From positions 1 through 36,083 of the forward strand of contig CAIPMU010000015.1 of NCBI GenBank assembly GCA_903866275.1: a DNA stretch of 36,083 nt. The letters run 5' to 3'. The stretch is from Vampirovibrio chlorellavorus. Its GTDB lineage: Bacteria; Cyanobacteriota; Vampirovibrionia; Vampirovibrionales; Vampirovibrionaceae. The number at the start of each line of letters is the position of its first letter. Positions within the stretch are counted from its first letter, which is position 1. The notes beneath the pieces were generated by a model. The model was given only the letters and a program-made list of their open reading frames with translations. It did no database searches and had not been told where the DNA came from. The position numbers and the translations under genes were made by a program. This document shows, one piece after another, positions 1,356 to 18,146 of this stretch.

Positions 1356-1382
1356 TTGACGTTTGCGCCGGGCTTCTATTAT
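1356..1382 (+). promoter_or_regulatory. Candidate promoter of the surface-sugar operon
   Basis: TTGACG at 1356-1361 and TATTAT at 1377-1382 are separated by 15 bases, slightly short for a sigma70-type promoter. Transcription would begin near 1389 and leave a leader of about 70 bases before the ATG at 1458. This argues against the in-frame TTG at 1356, which is part of the -35 box. Confidence 0.4.
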
Positions 1383-1457
1383 TCTGGTAGGAGTTTACCG
1401 GATCATGCGCCATACTGTTCAAGACGGGATCAACCACCAGTGGAACAAACGCCCTCA

Positions 1458-2798
1458 ATGACCACGCTCCCTCCCACCGCGACCACCAGCCGTCAGGCGC
1501 TGTTGGACAAAATTCAGGACCATAGCGCCCATATCGCCATCATTGGCATGGGCTATGTCGGCTTGCCATTGGCCGTTTGCGTGGCCAAAGTAGGCTACAC
1601 CGTCTCCGGCATCGACCTGAACCAGCCCCGCGTGGACATGCTCAATCAGGGCGACAGCTACATCGCGGATGTCAGCAACGAAGAGCTGGCCCCACTGGTG
1701 CAAAGTCAACAGATTCAAGCCACCAGCGATTTCAGCGTACTGGCCGACAGCGATGTGATTATCATCTGCGTGCCCACGCCGCTGACTAAAAACCGTGACC
1801 CGGACATCTCTTATATCCGCAAGGCGGGTGAGCAAATTGCCCGCTTTCTGCGCCCCGGCCAACTCATCACGCTGGAAAGCACCACCTACCCCGGTACCAC
1901 GGAAGAAGTGCTGCTCCCCCTGCTGCAACAAAGCGGCCTGACGGTGGGCGAAGACTTCTTCATTGCCCACTCCCCGGAGCGGGTGGATCCCGGCAATGCG
2001 CGCTACACCACGCACAACACCAACAAGGTGGTGGGCGGCTTCACCCCGGCCTGTCAGGAAGTGGCCGCGGCGTTCTACCGCAAGACCATTCTGGACATTA
2101 TTTCCGTCAGCTCTCCCGGTTGCGCCGAGATGGTGAAAGTGTTTGAGAACACATTCCGGGCGGTAAACATAGCCCTAGTCAACGAACTGGCCCTACTGTG
2201 CGACAAAATGGGCATCAGCGTGTGGGAAGTCATTGAAGCGGCCTCGACCAAGCCCTTTGGGATGCTCACCTTCTGGCCCGGCCCCGGCGTGGGTGGCCAC
2301 TGCATCCCCATTGACCCGTTCTACCTCACCTGGAAAGCGCGCGAGTACAACTTCCACACCCGCTTCATTGAGCTGGCCGGTGAGATCAACAACCACATGC
2401 CCATGTTCGTGCGCGAGAAGATCAGCCGCGCTTTAGGACGCCTCGGCAAGCCGCTGTATGGGTCTAAAATCCTGATTCTGGGCATGGCCTATAAAAAAGA
2501 TCTGGGCGATTGGCGACAATCCCCCGCGCTGGATTTGTTTAACCTGCTACTAGAAGACGACGTGCAGCTCAGCTACTGCGATCCCTATGTCCCGCAAATG
2601 GAAGACGTCAAAGGCGGAAAGCATCTGGCCGAACCCCTGACTGCCGAAACTCTCGCTCAGGCCGATTGTGTGGTCGTGCTCACCAACCACAGCGACTTTG
2701 ACTATCACTTCATCGTGGAACACAGCCCTGTGGTGGTAGATACCCGGAACGCCTGCGCGCAAGTGCTGGATCTGCGGGATAAGATCATTCTGCTATGA
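1458..2798 (+). CDS. wbpA: UDP-N-acetylglucosamine 6-dehydrogenase (WbpA type)
   Basis: NAD-dependent four-electron oxidation of UDP-GlcNAc to UDP-GlcNAcA, the first step towards UDP-ManNAc3NAcA-type sugars. The N-terminal Rossmann motif is IGMGYVGLP (about residues 29-37), CVPTPL follows near 104, and the catalytic cysteine lies in GVGGHCIPIDPFYL (Cys282). The H-C-I-P-I-D-P form is typical of the WbpA/WecC/Cap5-like branch rather than classic UDP-glucose dehydrogenase. I chose the ATG at 1458 (446 residues, close to the family's 430-440). A TTG at 1356 would add 34 residues that do not look conserved and overlap a likely promoter. The stop overlaps the next start (ATGA), so translation is probably coupled. 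Substrate choice between GlcNAc and ManNAc is inferred from the wbpB and wbpD neighbours. Confidence 0.9.
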   Translation: MTTLPPTATTSRQALLDKIQDHSAHIAIIGMGYVGLPLAVCVAKVGYTVSGIDLNQPRVDMLNQGDSYIADVSNEELAPLVQSQQIQATSDFSVLADSDVIIICVPTPLTKNRDPDISYIRKAGEQIARFLRPGQLITLESTTYPGTTEEVLLPLLQQSGLTVGEDFFIAHSPERVDPGNARYTTHNTNKVVGGFTPACQEVAAAFYRKTILDIISVSSPGCAEMVKVFENTFRAVNIALVNELALLCDKMGISVWEVIEAASTKPFGMLTFWPGPGVGGHCIPIDPFYLTWKAREYNFHTRFIELAGEINNHMPMFVREKISRALGRLGKPLYGSKILILGMAYKKDLGDWRQSPALDLFNLLLEDDVQLSYCDPYVPQMEDVKGGKHLAEPLTAETLAQADCVVVLTNHSDFDYHFIVEHSPVVVDTRNACAQVLDLRDKIILL

Positions 2799-3844
2799 GC
2801 ACTCTGCTGGTCGGATGCGGCTATTGGGGCGCCAATTGGGCCAAAGCGCTCTCCGGCATTGGACAGCTGGGGGCCATTTGTGACGCCCGGCCTCAAATTC
2901 AGGCCGATCTTAAAGCAAAATACCCCCAAGCAGCCCTCTATACCGAGCTGGCCGATGCGCTCCAGCATCCCGGCATAGAAGCCGTAATTGTGGCGACCCC
3001 GGTCATCACCCATTGCGAGGTTGCTCGGCTTTGCCTGCTGGCCGGTAAACATGTTTTGGTCGAGAAACCGCTCACACTCGACCCGGAAGAGTCCGAATTT
3101 CTGGTCAAACTGGCCGAAGGCGGCGGCTTGATTCTGGCAGTGGGGCACTTGCTGCTGTATCACCCGGCCTTAATTCATCTAAAAACGATGATGGACGCCG
3201 GTGCGCTGGGCGACATCCTCAGTGTGCAATCGACCCGCGTGAATTTAGGCAAGGTGCGCAACGAGGAAAACGTTTGGTGGAGCCTTGCCCCCCACGATTT
3301 ATCCATTGTCAGTATGCTCCTGGGCGAGCCCTTGCACTTGCAATCGGCCACGGGGATGACCCTCCTCAACCGGCCCGGACTGGAAGACACCGTACAAGTA
3401 AGCCTTGGCACCCCATCCGGGCGCTCGGCGAGTATTCAGGTGAGCTGGCTGGCCCCGGTCAAAAAGCACGAAACCGTGGTCATCGGCAGCTTGGGCATGG
3501 CCCTCTTTGAAGATACCCTCCCCGCGGGGCAAAAGCTGCAAGTGCTTGACTACAGCCTTGATCGCGCAGGCGATACCGTCAATGACGTGCAGCGGGGCGC
3601 CACCCAAGTAATCAATTACGCCCAGCCCCCGGCAGATTTGCTCACCATGCAGGCGCGGGCCTTTATCGCGGCCACCCGTGGACAACGGGCCAGCCTGCCC
3701 AACGATGGCCGAAACGGCTTGCAAGTGGTGCAACTGCTGGCCGAAGCACAGGCCCGCATCACGCAAGCCTCTGCGCTTCTGAACCAACCCGCGCTGGCAT
3801 CGCAACCCGGAAACCCCGCCCCTGGCGTCTTTGGTGTAAAATAA
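2795..3844 (+). CDS. wbpB: Gfo/Idh/MocA-family sugar oxidoreductase (WbpB-like)
   Basis: 349-residue NAD-dependent dehydrogenase. The Rossmann motif [11 protein letters not shown] sits at the extreme N-terminus and the family signature VLVEKPLTL, with its catalytic Lys, near residue 90. [10 protein letters not shown] stretch and an HDLSI-type segment (residues about 115-170) match the C-terminal substrate domain. In the WbpA-B-E-D-I pathway WbpB oxidises the 3-OH of UDP-GlcNAcA to a 3-keto sugar. The gene overlaps wbpA by 4 bases and is followed 29 bases later by the wbpD-like acetyltransferase, which supports this assignment. The aminotransferase (WbpE) that should act next is not in this window. 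The exact substrate is inferred from context; family membership is clear. Confidence 0.8.
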
Positions 3845-3873
3845 TCCCACTGTCTTGCAAGGGATTTACCGCC

Positions 3874-4485
3874 ATGTCCAATCCAGCGACTGATGCCGCC
3901 TCAAAGCCTTACTTTGTGCATGAATCTTCCTATGTGGATGAACCCAGCCAAATTGGCGAAGGCACGGCCATTTGGCACTTTTGCCACATTCTGGGCCAAA
4001 CCCAAATTGGGAAACAGTGCAAAATTGGCCAGAACGTGGTCATCGGCCCCCGCGTCGCCATTGGCAACGGCGTGAAAATTCAAAATAACGTGTCTATTTA
4101 TCCGGGCGTGACGCTGGAAGATGACGTATTTTGCGGGCCGAGCATGGTCTTTACCAATGTATTCAACCCGCGCAGCGCGATTGTACGCAACAGCGACGAA
4201 CATTTTAAAAAGACCTTAGTCAAGCAAGGGGCCTCCATTGGGGCCAACGCCACCATTGTTTGCGGCGTGACCATTGGCCGCTATGCCTTTGTGGGCGCAG
4301 GTTCGGTGGTGACTCGGGATGTCCCCGATTACGCGCTGGTCTATGGCAACCCGGCCCGCCAGCACGGCTGGGCCTGCTACTGCGGGGAATCGCTCAAAAA
4401 CAGCAAGGAACCCATTACTTGCCCAACCTGCCAACGCCAGTATCAACACACCAATAATGGCTTAATTGCCGTTGAAACCGTTTAA
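3874..4485 (+). CDS. wbpD: UDP-3-amino-sugar N-acetyltransferase (WbpD-like, left-handed beta-helix)
   Basis: 203-residue hexapeptide-repeat acetyltransferase, a trimer in this family. Repeats begin near residue 20 ([13 protein letters not shown]) and run to about 165. The segment [20 protein letters not shown] followed by [13 protein letters not shown] is characteristic of WbpD/WlbB enzymes, which acetylate the 3-amino group of UDP-GlcNAc3NA. The C-terminus carries CYCGESL and CPTC, a small probable zinc-ribbon tail seen in relatives. A GCAAGGGA ribosome site precedes the ATG. It sits in the same operon as wbpA- and wbpB-like genes, giving three of the five steps to UDP-ManNAc3NAcA. Confidence 0.85.
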
Positions 4486-4548
4486 CAGTGCCCTCCGAAA
4501 TTTATTTCTTTTTCATCCTATTCAATTAAAGCGAGTTAATCCATCCCC

Positions 4549-5793
4549 ATGAGCCGCATCGCGTTTTTGCTCAATAACGATTTCCAGTTTGATAGTCGCG
4601 TCCAGCGGGAAGCCTTGGCGTTGACGCAGGCAGGCCATACTGTGACGGTATTTTGCACCCGCGACAAGGCTAAACAACTTCCCTTAATCAGCGAAAAAGA
4701 GGGCGTACAAATTCGCCGGACCTTTCGTAAGGAAGTCCATTCCTTCAAGCCCCTGACCTTACGGCACGTCGCTGGACTAACGTCTATTCTTTTGAGCCAG
4801 GATATCAGGCAGGGTAGCCCATTTGATGTGGTGCATGCCCATGATGCCAACATGCTGCTGGTGGGCTGGGTCTTGGCGAGAGCCTGGGGTGCCCGTTTAA
4901 TTTATGATTCTCATGAATTATGGGATTCCATGTATCAGTTTGAGCAGGAGCAAACGGCCAGCCTGCCGATACCAGCAGGAAAAAAGCGCAAAACATTGGG
5001 AGAAATTGAGCGCACTCGTCAGGTGGAACGTTGGCTGCTGAAGCGCGCGCACGCCCTAATCTCCGTGAATGACAGCTTGTGCCGCATGCTGAACGATACC
5101 GCTCAACTGCCGCCGGAACGCTGTGTGAGTTTACGCAACACGGCGGAATATTTTGCCAGCCCGGAAAAACCCCTGCGCTTGCTGCACGAGCACTTTCAAC
5201 TCAATCCTGACACTCGGGTTATTTTATACCAGGGAGAAATTAAACCCGCCCGCGGCATTGAGCCCTTGCTAAGTGCACTGGAACTGTTGCCCAACGCCAA
5301 CCTCGCAGTGGTGATGATGGGCTCTATTCCGAGCGCCACTTACACCCAACAATTGAAAGATCGCATCGCAGCATCGGATCAGTTGCGAGGGCGAGTCTTG
5401 TTCAAGGAGCGAGTGACCCGGAGTGAACTGCTGGCCTGGACGGCTTCGGCGGATTTGGGTGTGGCGCCCATTTTAAATATTCGGGCCAATAATTATTACT
5501 GCTTGCCCAATAAATTATTTGAATACCTGCAAGCGGAAGTGCCTTGCGCTACATCCAACTTCCCGGAGCTGAAGGCGATTGTAGAAGGCTATGCGGTCGG
5601 TTTTACCTTCAACCCGGATGAACCGCAAACTTTAGCAGATGCACTTAGCGCCTTTTTTGCCGACCCCACACGGGCTGCACAATACCGTGAAAACGCCCGC
5701 AAGGCCAAGCACGAGCTCAGCTGGGAGCAGGAGCGCAATAAACTGATTGCGCTGTATCAAACGCTGGATCAAGCACTCGAGCCCGCTCATTAA
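4549..5793 (+). CDS. Glycosyltransferase, GT-B fold, family 4 type
   Basis: 414-residue enzyme with a GT4-like layout. The N-terminal acceptor domain opens with SRIAFLLNNDFQFDSRV and contains DVVHAHDANMLLVG and LIYDSHELWDS. The C-terminal donor-binding domain begins near ILYQGEIKPARGIE (about residue 225), and NKLFEYLQAEVP (about 325-336) fits the donor-binding region. It would add a sugar to a lipid-linked or surface polysaccharide in the cytoplasm. It lies 63 bases after the wbpD-like gene, so it may use the product of that pathway; donor and acceptor cannot be read from the sequence. No strong ribosome site is visible before the ATG. A strong hairpin follows the stop. Confidence 0.82.
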   Translation: MSRIAFLLNNDFQFDSRVQREALALTQAGHTVTVFCTRDKAKQLPLISEKEGVQIRRTFRKEVHSFKPLTLRHVAGLTSILLSQDIRQGSPFDVVHAHDANMLLVGWVLARAWGARLIYDSHELWDSMYQFEQEQTASLPIPAGKKRKTLGEIERTRQVERWLLKRAHALISVNDSLCRMLNDTAQLPPERCVSLRNTAEYFASPEKPLRLLHEHFQLNPDTRVILYQGEIKPARGIEPLLSALELLPNANLAVVMMGSIPSATYTQQLKDRIAASDQLRGRVLFKERVTRSELLAWTASADLGVAPILNIRANNYYCLPNKLFEYLQAEVPCATSNFPELKAIVEGYAVGFTFNPDEPQTLADALSAFFADPTRAAQYRENARKAKHELSWEQERNKLIALYQTLDQALEPAH

Positions 5794-7603: not shown

Positions 7604-9127
7604 ATGTCCACAGTGAAAGATTATCAACTCTGGATTAACGGTCAGTTTGTGCCCGCCGTGGCCGGGGAAACCTTTGAGAGCGTCAATCCGTTTACCGGCG
7701 AGCCTGTGGCCCGCGTGCCCCGTGGCAAAAAAGCGGACATTGATAAAGCCGTCGCCGCTGCCCGCCAAGCCTTTGATGAAGGCCGCTGGCCCCGCATGAG
7801 CGGCGAGGAACGCAGCCGCATTTTAAAAGACATTGGCGAGAAAATGGACGCCGCCTCAGCGCAATTGCTCAGCGTGATGATTGCGGAATCAGGCTCGACC
7901 GTGCGCAAGGCCAAAGGCGAAGTCTGGCTTAGTGCCAAAAATATGGGTTATTTTGCCAAGCTGGCCGCCCAATCACTGGAAAAACCCATTGAAGCGCTAT
8001 CTCGTCCGGGCGTGAGCAAAAACGTGCTGCGCCGCGAGCCGATTGGGGTGTGTGCGCAAATTATCCCCTGGAATTTCCCGCTGCAAATGGCCATCTGGAA
8101 GCTCGGCCCGGCGCTGGCCGCCGGTAACACGGTGGTGCTCAAGCCCGCTGAAGAAACCCCCGCCATGGCCCTGGAACTGGCCCAGATTCTGGCGGATAGC
8201 GAACTGCCCCCCGGCGTAGTAAATATCGTATCTGGCTACGGCGAAGAAGCGGGCGCGGCCCTGGCCGCTCACCCGGACGTGGACAAGATCGCCTTTACCG
8301 GCTCCACCGAAATTGGCAAAAAACTGATGGCCGAAGCGGCGCATGATCTCAAGCGCGTGACGCTGGAGTTGGGTGGCAAATCGGCCAACATTATCATGGA
8401 TGACGCCGATCTCTCCCAAGCCGTGGACGGCGCGCTGTATGCCGCCTTCTTTCATAGCGGACAATGCTGCACCGCAGGCACGCGACTCTTCTTGCAAGAC
8501 GGCATTTATGACGAGTTCCTGAAGCGCTTTACCGAGCGCGCCAAGCACATTCATCTGGGCAACCCGGCTGAAAAAAGTACCGATCTGGGGCCACTGGTTT
8601 CCAAGAAGCAACAGGAACGGGTGCTCCAGCACATCGCTGCCGGTAAAAAAGAAGGCGCGACCTGCCTACTGGGTGGTCAGGCCCCCACTGCCCCTGAACT
8701 GCAAGACGGCTACTTTGTGGAGCCCACCATTTTCGTGGATGTCACCAATGACATGGCCATTGCCCGCGAGGAAATCTTCGGGCCAGTGGTTTCGGTGCTG
8801 CGCTTTAAGACCGAAGCCGAAGCCGTGAAGCTGGCCAATGCCTCCCAATATGGGTTGGCCGGTGCCGTTTGGAGCCAGGACAGCGAAAAAGCTTTGCGGG
8901 TGGCACAGCAACTGCGGGCTGGCACCGTCTGGATTAACGAGTACCACCTGATCAATGAAAAAGCGCCCTTTGGCGGCTACAAGCAGTCCGGTCTGGGCCG
9001 CGAGCTGGGCGAGGATGCGCTGGATGAGTACACCGAAGTGAAACACATCCACATTGATGAAATTGGGGATCGCAGCAAGAAGTTTTGGTATGATGCTGTT
9101 TCAGCGCCGGCCCCACAACCGGCCTAG
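7604..9127 (+). CDS. NAD(P)-dependent aldehyde dehydrogenase
   Basis: 507 residues, usual length for the class 1/2-like ALDH superfamily. It oxidises an aldehyde to the acid in the cytoplasm. Visible landmarks are PWNFP (Asn157), LKPAEETP (Lys180), FTGSTEIGK, LELGGKS (Glu255), the catalytic SGQCCTAG (Cys289) and EEIFGPVVSVL. The ATG has an upstream GAGGGAGG/ACGAGG region. Substrate cannot be assigned from motifs; relatives act on betaine aldehyde, lactaldehyde, gamma-aminobutyraldehyde and others. It is followed 32 bases later by the lptC-like gene on the same strand, though a functional link is not evident. Confidence 0.92.
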   Translation: MSTVKDYQLWINGQFVPAVAGETFESVNPFTGEPVARVPRGKKADIDKAVAAARQAFDEGRWPRMSGEERSRILKDIGEKMDAASAQLLSVMIAESGSTVRKAKGEVWLSAKNMGYFAKLAAQSLEKPIEALSRPGVSKNVLRREPIGVCAQIIPWNFPLQMAIWKLGPALAAGNTVVLKPAEETPAMALELAQILADSELPPGVVNIVSGYGEEAGAALAAHPDVDKIAFTGSTEIGKKLMAEAAHDLKRVTLELGGKSANIIMDDADLSQAVDGALYAAFFHSGQCCTAGTRLFLQDGIYDEFLKRFTERAKHIHLGNPAEKSTDLGPLVSKKQQERVLQHIAAGKKEGATCLLGGQAPTAPELQDGYFVEPTIFVDVTNDMAIAREEIFGPVVSVLRFKTEAEAVKLANASQYGLAGAVWSQDSEKALRVAQQLRAGTVWINEYHLINEKAPFGGYKQSGLGRELGEDALDEYTEVKHIHIDEIGDRSKKFWYDAVSAPAPQPA

Positions 9128-11399: not shown

Positions 11400-11798
11400 A
11401 TGAGTCTCAAAGACGATCAACCCCCACCGGATCGCTCCAAACGCTGGTACGATGAGGACCCAGCATTACAACGCGCCCTCAAACAATTGCGGGATGCCTC
11501 GGATCAACATCAGGCTCAAATTGCGCTGAATATTATCAAGATTATCGTGGAGCACCAGATGGAAGAAAAAACCAGCCTGAAGCTGGAAGATCTCAACCCC
11601 GTCAATGCACCCCCAACAGCCTCGTGGGAGGCTCAACGACAACAGCGTCGCTGGTATGACGTGCATGAAACCCTTAGCTCAGCCATTCAACTGCTGGCCG
11701 ACTGTCCGGCGGACTTACAGGAACGCTTGATACCATCCATCATACAAATGATAGAAAACACCCTGGATCATCAGGAAGGCACCCCCGGGGAAGCCTAA
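11400..11798 (+). CDS. Small protein with an internal RWYD duplication, unknown function
   Basis: 132 residues built from two copies of a ~40-residue unit. Copy one (about residues 14-53) starts KRWYDEDPALQRALKQL and ends NIIKIIVEHQ. Copy two (about 83-123) starts RRWYDVHETLSSAIQLL and ends SIIQMIENTLDHQ. Each is predicted to be two helices. The two copies are joined by a Pro-rich linker. No signal peptide or membrane segment is present. TATAAT at 11362-11367 could be its -10 box, but no good -35 is spaced correctly. The family is not recognised; the repeat suggests a small helical adaptor. Confidence 0.6.
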   Translation: MSLKDDQPPPDRSKRWYDEDPALQRALKQLRDASDQHQAQIALNIIKIIVEHQMEEKTSLKLEDLNPVNAPPTASWEAQRQQRRWYDVHETLSSAIQLLADCPADLQERLIPSIIQMIENTLDHQEGTPGEA

Positions 11799-11858: not shown

Positions 11859-12554
11859 TCACTCGTGAAAAAAGCCACCACCGCAGATGATTTCCACCAC
11901 TTTCAGGAGAAAGCGTCTGGGGGCATCCGCCTGATGGAAATACACCTCTTCCCCGGCCAGATGCTTGATGCTCATCACCGCCGGCGCTGCGGGATCGGCA
12001 GGCACATAAAGGGAAGCCACTTCGTGCTGCAAGAGGTCCTGAAAATTCGCCGTTTGCAGGGGACTCCGGCTGTCCAGGAAATCGCCATTCAGGGCAATAA
12101 TGCGCCCCGTAAACAATGGCGGACGACCCGGGCGGTTGAGGGCCAGCGGCTTGGTATTGCCACGGGTGGTAAAGCTCATGGCATGCCAGAGAATGCGCAA
12201 AATCCCCACCGAGCGATCCGGATCGCCCTGGTACTGAATGCGAGGTGCATTCAGCGCATCCATTTCGCCATTTTCACCGGGGCTCAGCGCACGCTCCGTA
12301 AAAGCCGCCTCAAAACACTCCACAAAGTTTTCCAGGTCCTGCAACAGGTATTCAAACACCCGATGGGTATTTGCCATGGCCGCATCATGCTCTTTCATCT
12401 GCTTTTGCATATGCGCTGCCAGTAGATCGACCTTTTGCTGAATGGCACGCACGGCATTGGGCTCATAAAAGGCACTGCCCGGCCACTCGCTCTCGCGCCG
12501 ATTGGCCTTGATACCACCAGCTTGCATAAATTTCTTATCTTGCAGGTTCGCCAT
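11859..12554 (-). CDS. Cytoplasmic protein of unknown function, N-terminal coiled coil
   Basis: 231 residues, no signal peptide. Residues about 30-95 are strongly helical (VRAIQQKVDLLAAHMQKQMK, then VFEYLLQDLENFVECFEAAF). After about residue 105 a beta-rich domain follows (PLFTGRIIALNGDFLDSR, EEVYFHQADAPRRFLLKVVE) ending in GGGFFHE. The opposite-strand frame over the same bases is His/Gln-rich and lacks a domain look, so I take the minus strand. It lies downstream of the ugd-like gene with a gap of about 150 bases. I do not recognise a family. Confidence 0.6.
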   Translation of the reverse strand: MANLQDKKFMQAGGIKANRRESEWPGSAFYEPNAVRAIQQKVDLLAAHMQKQMKEHDAAMANTHRVFEYLLQDLENFVECFEAAFTERALSPGENGEMDALNAPRIQYQGDPDRSVGILRILWHAMSFTTRGNTKPLALNRPGRPPLFTGRIIALNGDFLDSRSPLQTANFQDLLQHEVASLYVPADPAAPAVMSIKHLAGEEVYFHQADAPRRFLLKVVEIICGGGFFHE

Positions 12555-12703: not shown

Positions 12704-14035
12704 CTATTCGATATTGGCTTTTGTTTTATCGGGTACCACACTACGGCGACCGATACTGACGTAAGTATAGCCCAATTTTTTCATCCGCTCCAGCGTAAAC
12801 AGGTTCCGGCCATCCACAATCAGACGGCAATCACTTTCCTGACGCAGCTTGAGGAAGTTGATGTAGGCAAACTCATCCCACTCGGTGAGAATGGCGATGG
12901 CATCCGCCCCTTTGGCAGCAGCGTAAGCACTTTCACAATACACCACATCCGGCAGATGCTCCTTACATTGCTCCATAACCAGCGGATCATAAGCCCGAAT
13001 ATGCGCACCACGCTTTTCCAGGCCACGAATAATACTGATCGCCGGGGTATCCCGGAGGTCATCGGTATGTGGACGATAGGCCAAACCCAGGACGGCAATG
13101 GTTTTACCATTGAGATTTTTACCCAGGGCCTCATCAATTTTCTCAATGAAGCTGATCCGCTGATAGCGATTAATAACATCAACCTGCTTGAGCAGATCCA
13201 GGTTGATATGGTACTCATCGGCAATATTTACCAGCGAGTTAATATCCTTGGGGAAGAAAATCCCCCCATAACCGACACCTGCGTTGAGGTACTCCTGCCC
13301 AATCCGACGATCAAGACCCAGGCCACGGGCGACCACGGTAATATCAGCGCCGGTTTTTTCGCAAATCTGGCCGATGGAGTTAATAAATGAAATTTTAGTC
13401 GCCAAAAACGCATTGGTCGCGTGCTTGATCAACTCAGCGCTGTTAATATCGGTGATCAGAATGGGCGCGTTCAAGGTGCGATAAATATCCACAATCGTAT
13501 CAATGGCGCGTTTGCTTTCAGCGCCAATCACGATGCGATCCGGATGCATGAAATCCTGCACGGCATGACCTTCACGCAAGAACTGAGGAACCGCGGCAAT
13601 GTCGTATTCAATGCCGGCAGGAACCTGTGCCCGCAGGAGAGACTCCAGCCATTCCCCCGTTTTAATGGGCATAGTGCTCTTTTCAATGATTAACCGGTAA
13701 CCATCCATCCCCGCCGCGATACTTTTAACCGCAGCAGTCAAACTGTTGACATCCGCCTTACCGGACGGCAAAGACGGGGTCCCGACGCACAGGAACACCA
13801 CTTCAGAAACCCGAACTGCATGGGCAATATCGGCGGTAAATTCCAGCCGTCCCTCTTCACGGTTCCCGCGAATCATGGGAGCCAAAGCCTCTTCGTAAAA
13901 ATGGACTTTGCCTTCCTGCAAATTCTTCATGCGCCCTTCTTTTTCATCGGCGCAAACCACATGATGCCCCATTTCAGCCAAGCAAGTGCCAGTGACCGTT
14001 CCCACATAGCCCGATCCGATGACTGCAATTTTCAC
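12704..14035 (-). CDS. UDP-glucose 6-dehydrogenase homologue lacking the catalytic cysteine
   Basis: 443 residues, full length for UDP-glucose 6-dehydrogenase, which normally makes UDP-glucuronate with two NAD+. The Rossmann motif IGSGYVGTVTG, CVGTP (83-87), EKST (118-121), ELIKHATNAFLATKISF (Lys204, Asn208) and DRRIG are intact. The active-site loop normally reads GYGGSCFPKD but here is GYGGIFFPKD: Ser to Ile259 and the nucleophilic Cys to Phe260, while Asp264 remains. The usual NPEFLREG reads VPQFLREG, so the first Glu is Gln151. I checked the codons (ATT TTC TTC), so one base change does not explain it. The start is GTG with GAGGG about 8 bases upstream. The fold is clear, but true UDP-glucuronate synthesis is doubtful, so I withhold the symbol ugd. 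Confidence 0.9.
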   Translation of the reverse strand: MKIAVIGSGYVGTVTGTCLAEMGHHVVCADEKEGRMKNLQEGKVHFYEEALAPMIRGNREEGRLEFTADIAHAVRVSEVVFLCVGTPSLPSGKADVNSLTAAVKSIAAGMDGYRLIIEKSTMPIKTGEWLESLLRAQVPAGIEYDIAAVPQFLREGHAVQDFMHPDRIVIGAESKRAIDTIVDIYRTLNAPILITDINSAELIKHATNAFLATKISFINSIGQICEKTGADITVVARGLGLDRRIGQEYLNAGVGYGGIFFPKDINSLVNIADEYHINLDLLKQVDVINRYQRISFIEKIDEALGKNLNGKTIAVLGLAYRPHTDDLRDTPAISIIRGLEKRGAHIRAYDPLVMEQCKEHLPDVVYCESAYAAAKGADAIAILTEWDEFAYINFLKLRQESDCRLIVDGRNLFTLERMKKLGYTYVSIGRRSVVPDKTKANIE

Positions 14036-14350
14036 TGACGAACCCTCGCTTTCTTGCTCTCATATCCAATAATCGCTCTCATTACTTTAGCATAAACGAG
14101 CCATTTGCAAGGCGTTTACACGGGCTTAGGGTGGTGTATCGCTGACACCATCCCCAATTACCCCACTCAGCTCCTCCGGGGAGAGGACATTATCCCCCTT
14201 ACCCTTCAGTTTTTGGCACCACCGTCCGAATAAAAATTCAGAGCCGATTCAAACTCGATATTACCCCCCGATTTTTCAATCCGATTGCAAGCCAAAAACA
14301 AAAGCCCCCAAGGATAGGGCGGCACGGCACAAGTTAAGGAGAACTTGCCA
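14036..14350. other. Divergent regulatory region between the ugd-like gene and flagellin
   Basis: 315 bases with no gene. It must hold the ugd-like promoter (minus) and the flagellin promoter (plus). I see a small CTCC-TCCG-GGAG hairpin near 14171, C-rich motifs ATTATCCCCCTTACCC at 14189-14204 and TTACCCCCC at 14261-14269, and the flagellin AAGGAG ribosome site at 14336-14341. No sequence fits the sigma28 consensus (TAAA-N15-GCCGATAA) well. Confidence 0.6.
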
Positions 14351-15223
14351 ATGTCTATGGGCATTAATACCAACGTGACGTCTCTGATTGCACAGCGCAA
14401 GCTGAGCGCCAACCAGACCGCATTGCAAGCCAGCATGGAACGCCTGGCGTCAGGGTATCGCATCAATCACGCTTCGGATGACGCTGCCGGATTGACCATT
14501 TCTCAAAACCTGCTCAGCCAGATTCGTCGGATGCAACAGGCCGATCGCAACACCCAGGACGGCATCAGCGTTTTGCAGACGACCGAAGGCACCTTAAGTG
14601 CCATCAACGATAACCTGCAACGTGTCCGGGAACTCACCGTTCAAGCAGGTAACGACAGCAATGACACCAGCATGCGAAGCGCCATCAGCAATGAAATCCG
14701 CTCCTTGCTGAACGATGTGGATCGCATGTCAATTTCTGCCAACATCAACGGCATTAACCTGCTGGATGGCTCAGCCACCAGCGCCCCCATTCAGGTGGGC
14801 CCCAGCTCCAATGCCTCCAATAACAGCATTGACATTGCTTCTGTCCTCACTGATGCCAGTTCCGGCGGATTACAGCTAGTCGGTAGTACGGGACAAACCT
14901 TTGCAACGGTGGCCGCAATCGATCTCAATAGCAACGCATCGGCCAACGCCTTCCTGACAGACATCGATACAGCACTACACAACCTCAGCACCCAACGGGC
15001 CGGGATTGGCGCTTTTCAAAACCAGCTGGAAACCATCAGCAGCAACCTGAATGATGGCATTGTCAACTTTTCCGCCTCCAACTCCCGCATTCGGGATGTC
15101 GACATTGCCGCAGAAACAGCCACGATGACCCAAAGCCAGATTCTCACCCAAGCGGCCACCATGATTTTGACCCAAACCAACGATCTCCCCAAAAGCATCC
15201 TAAGCCTACTCCAGCAGCACTAA
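14351..15223 (+). CDS. fliC: Flagellin (first copy)
   Basis: 290-residue filament subunit. The N-terminal D0/D1 region (MSMGINTNVTSL, RLASGYRINHASDDAAGL) and NDNLQRVRELTVQAGNDSND are textbook flagellin; the C-terminal D0 region (SRIRDVDIAAETATMTQSQI, ending SILSLLQQH) is also present. The variable centre is short (about residues 140-215), so the filament lacks large outer domains. The ATG at 14351 has AAGGAG 9 bases upstream; a TTG two codons earlier is less likely. It would be exported by the flagellar type III apparatus. The second flagellin at 16497 is clearly a different sequence. Confidence 0.95.
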   Translation: MSMGINTNVTSLIAQRKLSANQTALQASMERLASGYRINHASDDAAGLTISQNLLSQIRRMQQADRNTQDGISVLQTTEGTLSAINDNLQRVRELTVQAGNDSNDTSMRSAISNEIRSLLNDVDRMSISANINGINLLDGSATSAPIQVGPSSNASNNSIDIASVLTDASSGGLQLVGSTGQTFATVAAIDLNSNASANAFLTDIDTALHNLSTQRAGIGAFQNQLETISSNLNDGIVNFSASNSRIRDVDIAAETATMTQSQILTQAATMILTQTNDLPKSILSLLQQH

Positions 15224-17436: not shown

Positions 17437-17829
17437 TTACAAGTGGCCGTCATCCTGGACGTCCATTTCCTCAGGCACCAGAGGCAAATTTTGATAGGTC
17501 ACAATGGTAACCAGCGAATTTTCATCCACGGGCTGGCTGTAAGTCTCCGATAAAAACTGGATAATGGCCGCATGCGTCTGCAAAGACTGCTTCTGCATGA
17601 ACAGATCTGAGGGAGACAGCTCGCGAATGGCGCACTGCCGAAGCTCGCCCACCACTTTGCCCTTGCGAAGACAGCGATGATTCACGCGAATGTCCACCAC
17701 TTCATCGGGTACCCAGTATTGATTCTCATAGTAGAGCTTGCCCAACCGGAACGCACACCGCAGCTGCTCGGTGTCTTCAGCGATCACTTCGTCCCGGAAT
17801 TGCTGAGGCCAGTTGATTGCCTTTGCCAT
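17437..17829 (-). CDS. Conserved-looking protein, possible ASCH/PUA-like fold
   Basis: 130 residues from the ATG at 17829, which has AAGGG six bases upstream; a TTG at 17850 would add seven residues. The sequence starts MAKAINWPQQFRDEVIAEDT and continues CAFRLGKLYYENQYWVPDEV, VDIRVNHRCLRKGKVVGEL and VTIVTYQNLPLVPEE. I recall similar proteins in cyanobacteria. The alternating strand pattern with R-V-N-H and a C-terminal V-T-V-x-Y strand suggests a small beta-barrel of the PUA/ASCH kind, which often binds RNA. That fold guess is tentative. No operon partner is visible. Confidence 0.6.
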   Translation of the reverse strand: MAKAINWPQQFRDEVIAEDTEQLRCAFRLGKLYYENQYWVPDEVVDIRVNHRCLRKGKVVGELRQCAIRELSPSDLFMQKQSLQTHAAIIQFLSETYSQPVDENSLVTIVTYQNLPLVPEEMDVQDDGHL

Positions 17830-18146
17830 ACCCTTGATGTCCTCACCCAAACGCTATCTGGTGTTGTGTTAAGCACAGGTCCGCCCGCCCATTGGGGCCA
17901 GGCAGAACATGCCGCCTGAATGTAAGGCTTTGTTATTCATAATACTTGAAGAAAGTACAGAAAAGTTCAAAACGTAAAAATTAGATTTACCCCCCTTGAT
18001 CCGCCGAGTGCATCCCTCTTCCCGGTTCTGCTTGGATAGAGTGTAGTACAAGTTGCGCCTTGAGATCCGTTCCCCGGTTCTCTAAGCTGGAAACATAGTA
18101 TTTGTGGGCAAGAGAGACGCGACCAACGGTCTGCGATAGAGTAACC
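17830..18146. other. Intergenic region between divergent small genes
   Basis: About 317 bases without a convincing gene. The left part near 17878-17910 is C/G-rich; the middle is AT-rich and includes the motif TTTACCCCCCTTGAT at 17986-18000, similar to motifs upstream of the flagellins. No clean promoter boxes or terminators were found. Confidence 0.5.

Follow-up and report, generated by a model that had tools for sequence, protein, structure and literature searches.

A UDP-glucose dehydrogenase homologue of Vampirovibrionales without the catalytic cysteine and its partner glutamate, possibly a UDP-sugar-binding protein

Vampirovibrionales, an order of predatory and non-photosynthetic relatives of the cyanobacteria, possesses a homologue of UDP-glucose dehydrogenase (UGDH) in which the catalytic cysteine and the glutamate linked to hydrolysis have both been replaced. 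The gene described here occupies positions 12704–14035 (minus strand) of a 36,083-nucleotide stretch of Vampirovibrio chlorellavorus DNA (from contig CAIPMU010000015.1), referred to as the window. Judged from its residues, the protein very probably does not form UDP-glucuronate as UGDH does. The explanation ranked first, to which we would give slightly less than an even chance, is a UGDH-derived UDP-sugar-binding protein of this order, devoid of UDP-glucuronate synthesis and possibly tied to flagellar function. It is placed ahead of the others because the UDP-sugar site is fixed, the cofactor side is drifting and the gene is linked to flagellin.

Fold, substitutions and retained residues

The open reading frame starts with GTG and encodes 443 amino acids with no internal stop. 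All three UDPG_MGDP_dh domains (PF03721, PF00984, PF03720) were matched in a Pfam search, and the score with TIGR03026 (414.1 bits against a cut-off of 189.8) places the protein in the NDP-sugar dehydrogenase family, so that automatic annotation with this model would label it a nucleotide sugar dehydrogenase. The TuaD model NF047673 is non-discriminating, as the homologue (489.2 bits) and the Cys-type paralogue of the same genome (534.9 bits) both lie under its 700-bit equivalog cut-off. The AlphaFold model has a mean pLDDT of 92.8, and its best matches among solved structures are ordinary UGDHs, the top one being BceC (2y0e, TM 0.94). With the UGDHs of the TIGR03026 family (BceC, UgdG 4a7p, human UGDH) the homologue thus has in common the three domains, the predicted fold and residues Lys204, Asn208, Arg244, Gly257, Asp264 and Arg410. 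It departs from them in having neither the catalytic Cys nor the Glu linked to hydrolysis, in the replacement of Lys320 by Arg and in an NAD side that drifts in part of the clade.

The numbering of the homologue coincides with that of Streptococcus pyogenes UGDH at Lys204, Asn208, Cys260 and Asp264. Where the family norm is NPEFLREG and GYGGSCFPKD, the homologue reads AAVPQFLREG and GYGGIFFPKD. Both replacements proposed in the initial annotation are present in the translated frame: Phe260 (codon TTC, 13256–13258, minus strand) stands in place of the catalytic Cys260, and Gln151 (CAG, 13583–13585, minus strand) in place of an invariant Glu (Glu141 in S. pyogenes, Glu161 in human UGDH). Phe and Gln occur in 16/16 aligned orthologues, Cys and Glu in 18/18 comparison sequences. 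The accompanying statement that Lys204, Asn208 and Asp264 are kept holds as well. Two further changes had been overlooked. The invariant diphosphate-binding Lys320 has become Arg321 (CGT, 13073–13075, minus strand; Arg in 16/16, Lys in 18/18 comparison sequences), and the Asn of NPEF has become Val149 (13589–13591, minus strand; Val in 16/16, Asn in 18/18). Ser259 is replaced by Ile, which is fixed across the clade.

Among 229 family members, 18 residues have been described as invariant, including Cys260, Glu141 and Lys320 (PMC4794789); exactly these three are altered throughout the clade. In that work, Cys260 provides covalent catalysis in the second oxidation step, Lys320 coordinates the diphosphate, and Glu141 is given a loop-holding role (PMC4794789). 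The structure of the human Glu161Gln variant (3KHU) is entitled a complex with the thiohemiacetal intermediate. That title points to a part for this Glu in thioester turnover, in line with the earlier proposal that both losses affect one half-reaction. The exchange of Lys320 for Arg321 is conservative, and the diphosphate-coordinating role may persist. Substitutions of a comparable type have been engineered in the human enzyme (the Glu161Gln and Cys276 mutants); compared with them, the changes in the homologue are natural, combined, maintained across an order, and introduce Phe instead of Ser or Ala. A substitute active-site Cys was also considered and rejected: the clade-specific invariant residues are Val149, Gln151, Phe260, Arg290, Tyr291, Arg321, Cys403 and Arg404. 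The only Cys among these, Cys403, belongs to the C-terminal domain, and none has newly become invariant around residue 260.

Much of the remaining site is preserved. The homologue retains the GSGYVG motif together with Lys204, Asn208, Asp264 and Tyr10, and these four residues are unvarying in the 16 aligned orthologues, as are Glu155, Arg244, Leu250, Gly253, Gly257 and Arg410. That the NAD+ motifs are intact, as first annotated, is true of the window protein (Gly7, Gly9, Gly12, Thr83, Ser117, Thr118) and of the listed NAD-contact residues in its genus, but not of the whole clade: Thr83 is lost in 6 of the 16 orthologues, Thr118 in 4, Gly12 and Asp30 in 3 each and Ser117 in 1. Of the sites that are invariant in 18 Cys-type proteins, 28/49 are altered within residues 1–195 compared with 15/52 in the remainder (Fisher p 0.005, a nominal value, since related sequences and sites are treated as independent); this bias towards the NAD-binding half was not seen in control comparisons among Cys-type groups (paralogue and sister). 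In family f3 (loci L023, L024 and L025) the Rossmann motif reads GxGxxA, with Gly12 changed to Ala and Asp30 to Gly. Such a combination would fit the fingerprint of NADP use, and these changes could reflect a switch from NAD to NADP instead of cofactor loss. With NAD-side residues missing from part of the clade, a dehydrogenase that does no more than form the aldehyde becomes less plausible, and either ligand binding or a different cofactor gains in likelihood.

Distribution, origin and Cys-type relatives

An orthologue is present in 17 of the 18 genomes of Vampirovibrionales, the one genome without it being 85% complete. Phe260 and Gln151 occur together in 17/17 orthologues from independent assemblies, among them the V. 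chlorellavorus isolate, and all of them read VPQF[LM]REG and GYGGIF[FL]. Since both changes recur in every independent assembly, neither chance nor assembly error explains them, and a mutation of one strain or a sequencing error was rejected on the same ground. In a whole-genome search, the window genome was placed in the genus of V. chlorellavorus NCIMB 11383, which also provides the nearest named relative of the locus (83% identity). V. chlorellavorus is flagellated and preys on Chlorella (PMC4451040).

The proteins with Phe260 form a single clade with 100/100 support in a tree built from 34 sequences, and one change is enough to account for it. Identity within the clade ranges from 52 to 85%, and dN/dS is about 0.05 (pairwise 0.02–0.12 where dS was computable). 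This is a single old loss event followed by purifying selection. The co-occurrence of the two losses in a distinct clade and their selective nature, as opposed to random decay, had both been anticipated in the initial annotation; close relatives with a normal Cys, which would have spoken against it, did not appear, every orthologue found in the order having Phe260.

When 386 genomes sampled evenly across the phylum were searched for G[YF]GGxF[FL] with a degenerate pattern at the DNA level, 2 matched, both in Vampirovibrionales; the reversed control gave 0 matches. A scan with six peptides of the window protein, including IFFPKDIN, over one genome per species (84,980 species) recovered relatives at four loci only, all with Phe and Gln, three of them recorded as Vampirovibrio and the fourth corresponding to the f1 genome G005; it detects close relatives only and leaves room for Cys-less clades in other bacteria. 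The exact motif was not found in viral contigs, and a tblastn search of plasmids returned 858 relatives, counted irrespective of residue 260 and every one below 60% identity. A literature search for a UGDH pseudoenzyme retrieved none among the papers covered.

Beyond the order, the proteins nearest to the homologue contain the Cys and come from other classes of the phylum (L041–L048, 47–51% identity). These KH-type UGDHs share the SAELIKHA core with the homologue, but retain NPEFL and GYGG[SAI]CFPKD, which the homologue does not. In two f14 genomes, a sugar-nucleotide epimerase/decarboxylase-like gene lies upstream of the Cys-type relative, whose neighbour, unlike that of the homologue, is not flagellin.

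Most genomes of the clade also carry a normal UGDH. In the window genome, a second, Cys-containing UGDH (43% identity to the homologue) is encoded at G000:C7:75311–76612 and is directly followed, at C7:76669–77586, by a gene resembling UDP-glucuronate decarboxylase (UXS-like) and homologous to the f14 neighbour gene; with an epimerase-like gene in front, the three span G000:C7:73099–77586. On the strength of this pair, the genome appears to have the ordinary UDP-glucuronate route at another site, and probably UDP-xylose formation too. The window itself contains another nucleotide-sugar cluster at 1356–5793 (plus strand), with a second NDP-sugar dehydrogenase whose Cys is intact (GVGGHCIPID), a GFO/IDH/MocA oxidoreductase, a hexapeptide acyltransferase and a glycosyltransferase.

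In 7/18 genomes, including all of f3, no strong UXS-like match was obtained, and UDP-xylose is therefore unlikely as a general ligand. In the three f3 genomes that carry the homologue (assemblies 81–94% complete), it is the only PF00984 gene found. Subject to assembly completeness, there is no normal UGDH encoded alongside it for it to pair with, so that a universal role as regulatory subunit of the normal enzyme is unlikely; one of these genomes comprises 3 contigs and is 93% complete.

Flagellin neighbourhood

An aspect overlooked in the initial annotation is the linkage to flagellin. In the window, a flagellin gene recognised by NCBIfam flagellin models (14351–15223, plus strand) lies head-to-head with the homologue across a divergent intergenic region (14036–14350). 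The same arrangement, with the flagellin read from the opposite strand and its start a few hundred bases upstream, was found in 13/14 f1/f2 genomes, while the other neighbours vary between genera; adjacency is absent in G012 and in family f3. This conserved synteny suggests a flagellar role of the homologue. Just before the flagellin start codon, the intergenic region contains the motif TTAAGGAGAAC, found also at L010–L014 and L021 (GTTAAGGAGAAC in most); with its GGA, it looks like a strong ribosome-binding site.

Flagellins occur in all 18 genomes of the order. The window contains two of the seven flagellin-domain matches of its genome (14351–15223 and 16497–17333, plus strand), compared with 2–11 matches in other genomes of the order. 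A PF01973 (MptE-like) protein is present in 13/18 genomes, a family to which the Maf flagellin glycosyltransferases belong.

On the other side of the homologue lies a conserved orphan gene (11859–12554, minus strand; 231 aa), found beside or near it in 10 compared regions, whose product could not be matched credibly to any Pfam family or to any fold in the PDB. Two further genes of the window, at 11400–11798 (plus strand) and 17437–17850 (minus strand), belong to protein families conserved in related genomes; the former had no NCBIfam match. An aldehyde dehydrogenase gene at 7604–9127 (plus strand) is found in only part of the related regions and is thus not considered linked to the homologue.

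Possible functions

As a UDP-sugar-binding protein, the homologue would keep the UGDH fold and bind its ligand with Phe260 occupying the space next to the sugar C6, a placement suggested by human UGDH, in which the C6 hydroxyl is reported to lie close to the Cys (PMC3184952). It would act mainly as a sensor, scaffold or regulatory protein for a UDP-sugar, most likely in connection with flagellin production or modification, and any leftover chemistry would amount to one two-electron step at most. Several observations argue against such a role. Lys204, Asn208, Asp264 and Tyr10 are redox machinery, needless for a pure binder and nevertheless invariant; the window genus keeps its NAD contacts, and the f3 changes could equally mark the NADP switch discussed above. 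The flagellar tie is likewise weakened by f3 and G012, and gene linkage by itself does not establish a function.

The main rival, clearly less probable than a binding role, is a two-electron oxidoreductase that would oxidise UDP-glucose or a related UDP-sugar to the 6-aldehyde only, or catalyse the reverse reduction. The invariance of these same four residues means that the parts for the first hydride transfer remain, the second oxidation is the step whose catalysis has been attributed to the missing Cys260 (PMC4794789), and the f3 Rossmann motif would suit a change to NADP. Such an enzyme fits less well, however, with the loss, in some of the orthologues, of the counterparts of Thr83 and Thr118 (contacts of NAD or of its water), with the crowding of C6 expected from Phe260, and with the compared regions, where no neighbour that would use a UDP-hexodialdose was recognised. 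Somewhat less likely again is a dehydrogenase re-specialised for a UDP-pentose or another nucleotide sugar, in which Phe260, Ile259 and Val149 would give the pocket another shape and the diphosphate would be held by Arg321. The new clade-invariant residues do suggest a gained function, most genomes have a UXS-like gene, and Phe would suit a sugar without C6, given that in human UGDH the C6 hydroxyl may come within bonding distance of the catalytic Cys (PMC3184952). Yet strong UXS-like matches are less widespread than the homologue, some members of the clade show drift in the NAD half, and no recognisable sugar cluster surrounds the gene in any compared region.

Synthesis of UDP-glucuronate by another route, such as direct hydration of the aldehyde, is very unlikely. 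The human C276A mutant is reported to oxidise added aldehyde, but it fails to complete the reaction starting from UDP-glucose (PMC3184952); and while no other PF00984 gene was found in f3 genomes, no strong UXS-like partner was found there either, most genomes keep a normal UGDH, and no orthologue retains the nucleophile or the Glu linked to hydrolysis. A decaying pseudogene, or the mutation of one strain, would account for two lost catalytic residues, but has a negligible probability and, for the clade at large, is refuted by the open frame and both changes in every orthologue, the single origin, the low dN/dS and the confident full-length fold.

Returning to the UDP-sugar-binding protein, a more specific version, in which a former UGDH has turned into a sensor of UDP-sugars and ties the expression or glycosylation of flagellin to the supply of nucleotide sugars in these predatory bacteria, is speculative and, as it stands, improbable. 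Although Cys, Glu and Lys were reported to be invariant in this family, an old, order-wide lineage of single origin has dropped the first two and swapped the third while still being under strong selection. For the debated mechanism of UGDH it offers a double mutant made by nature, and it is also a candidate for a nucleotide-sugar pseudoenzyme with a link to motility.
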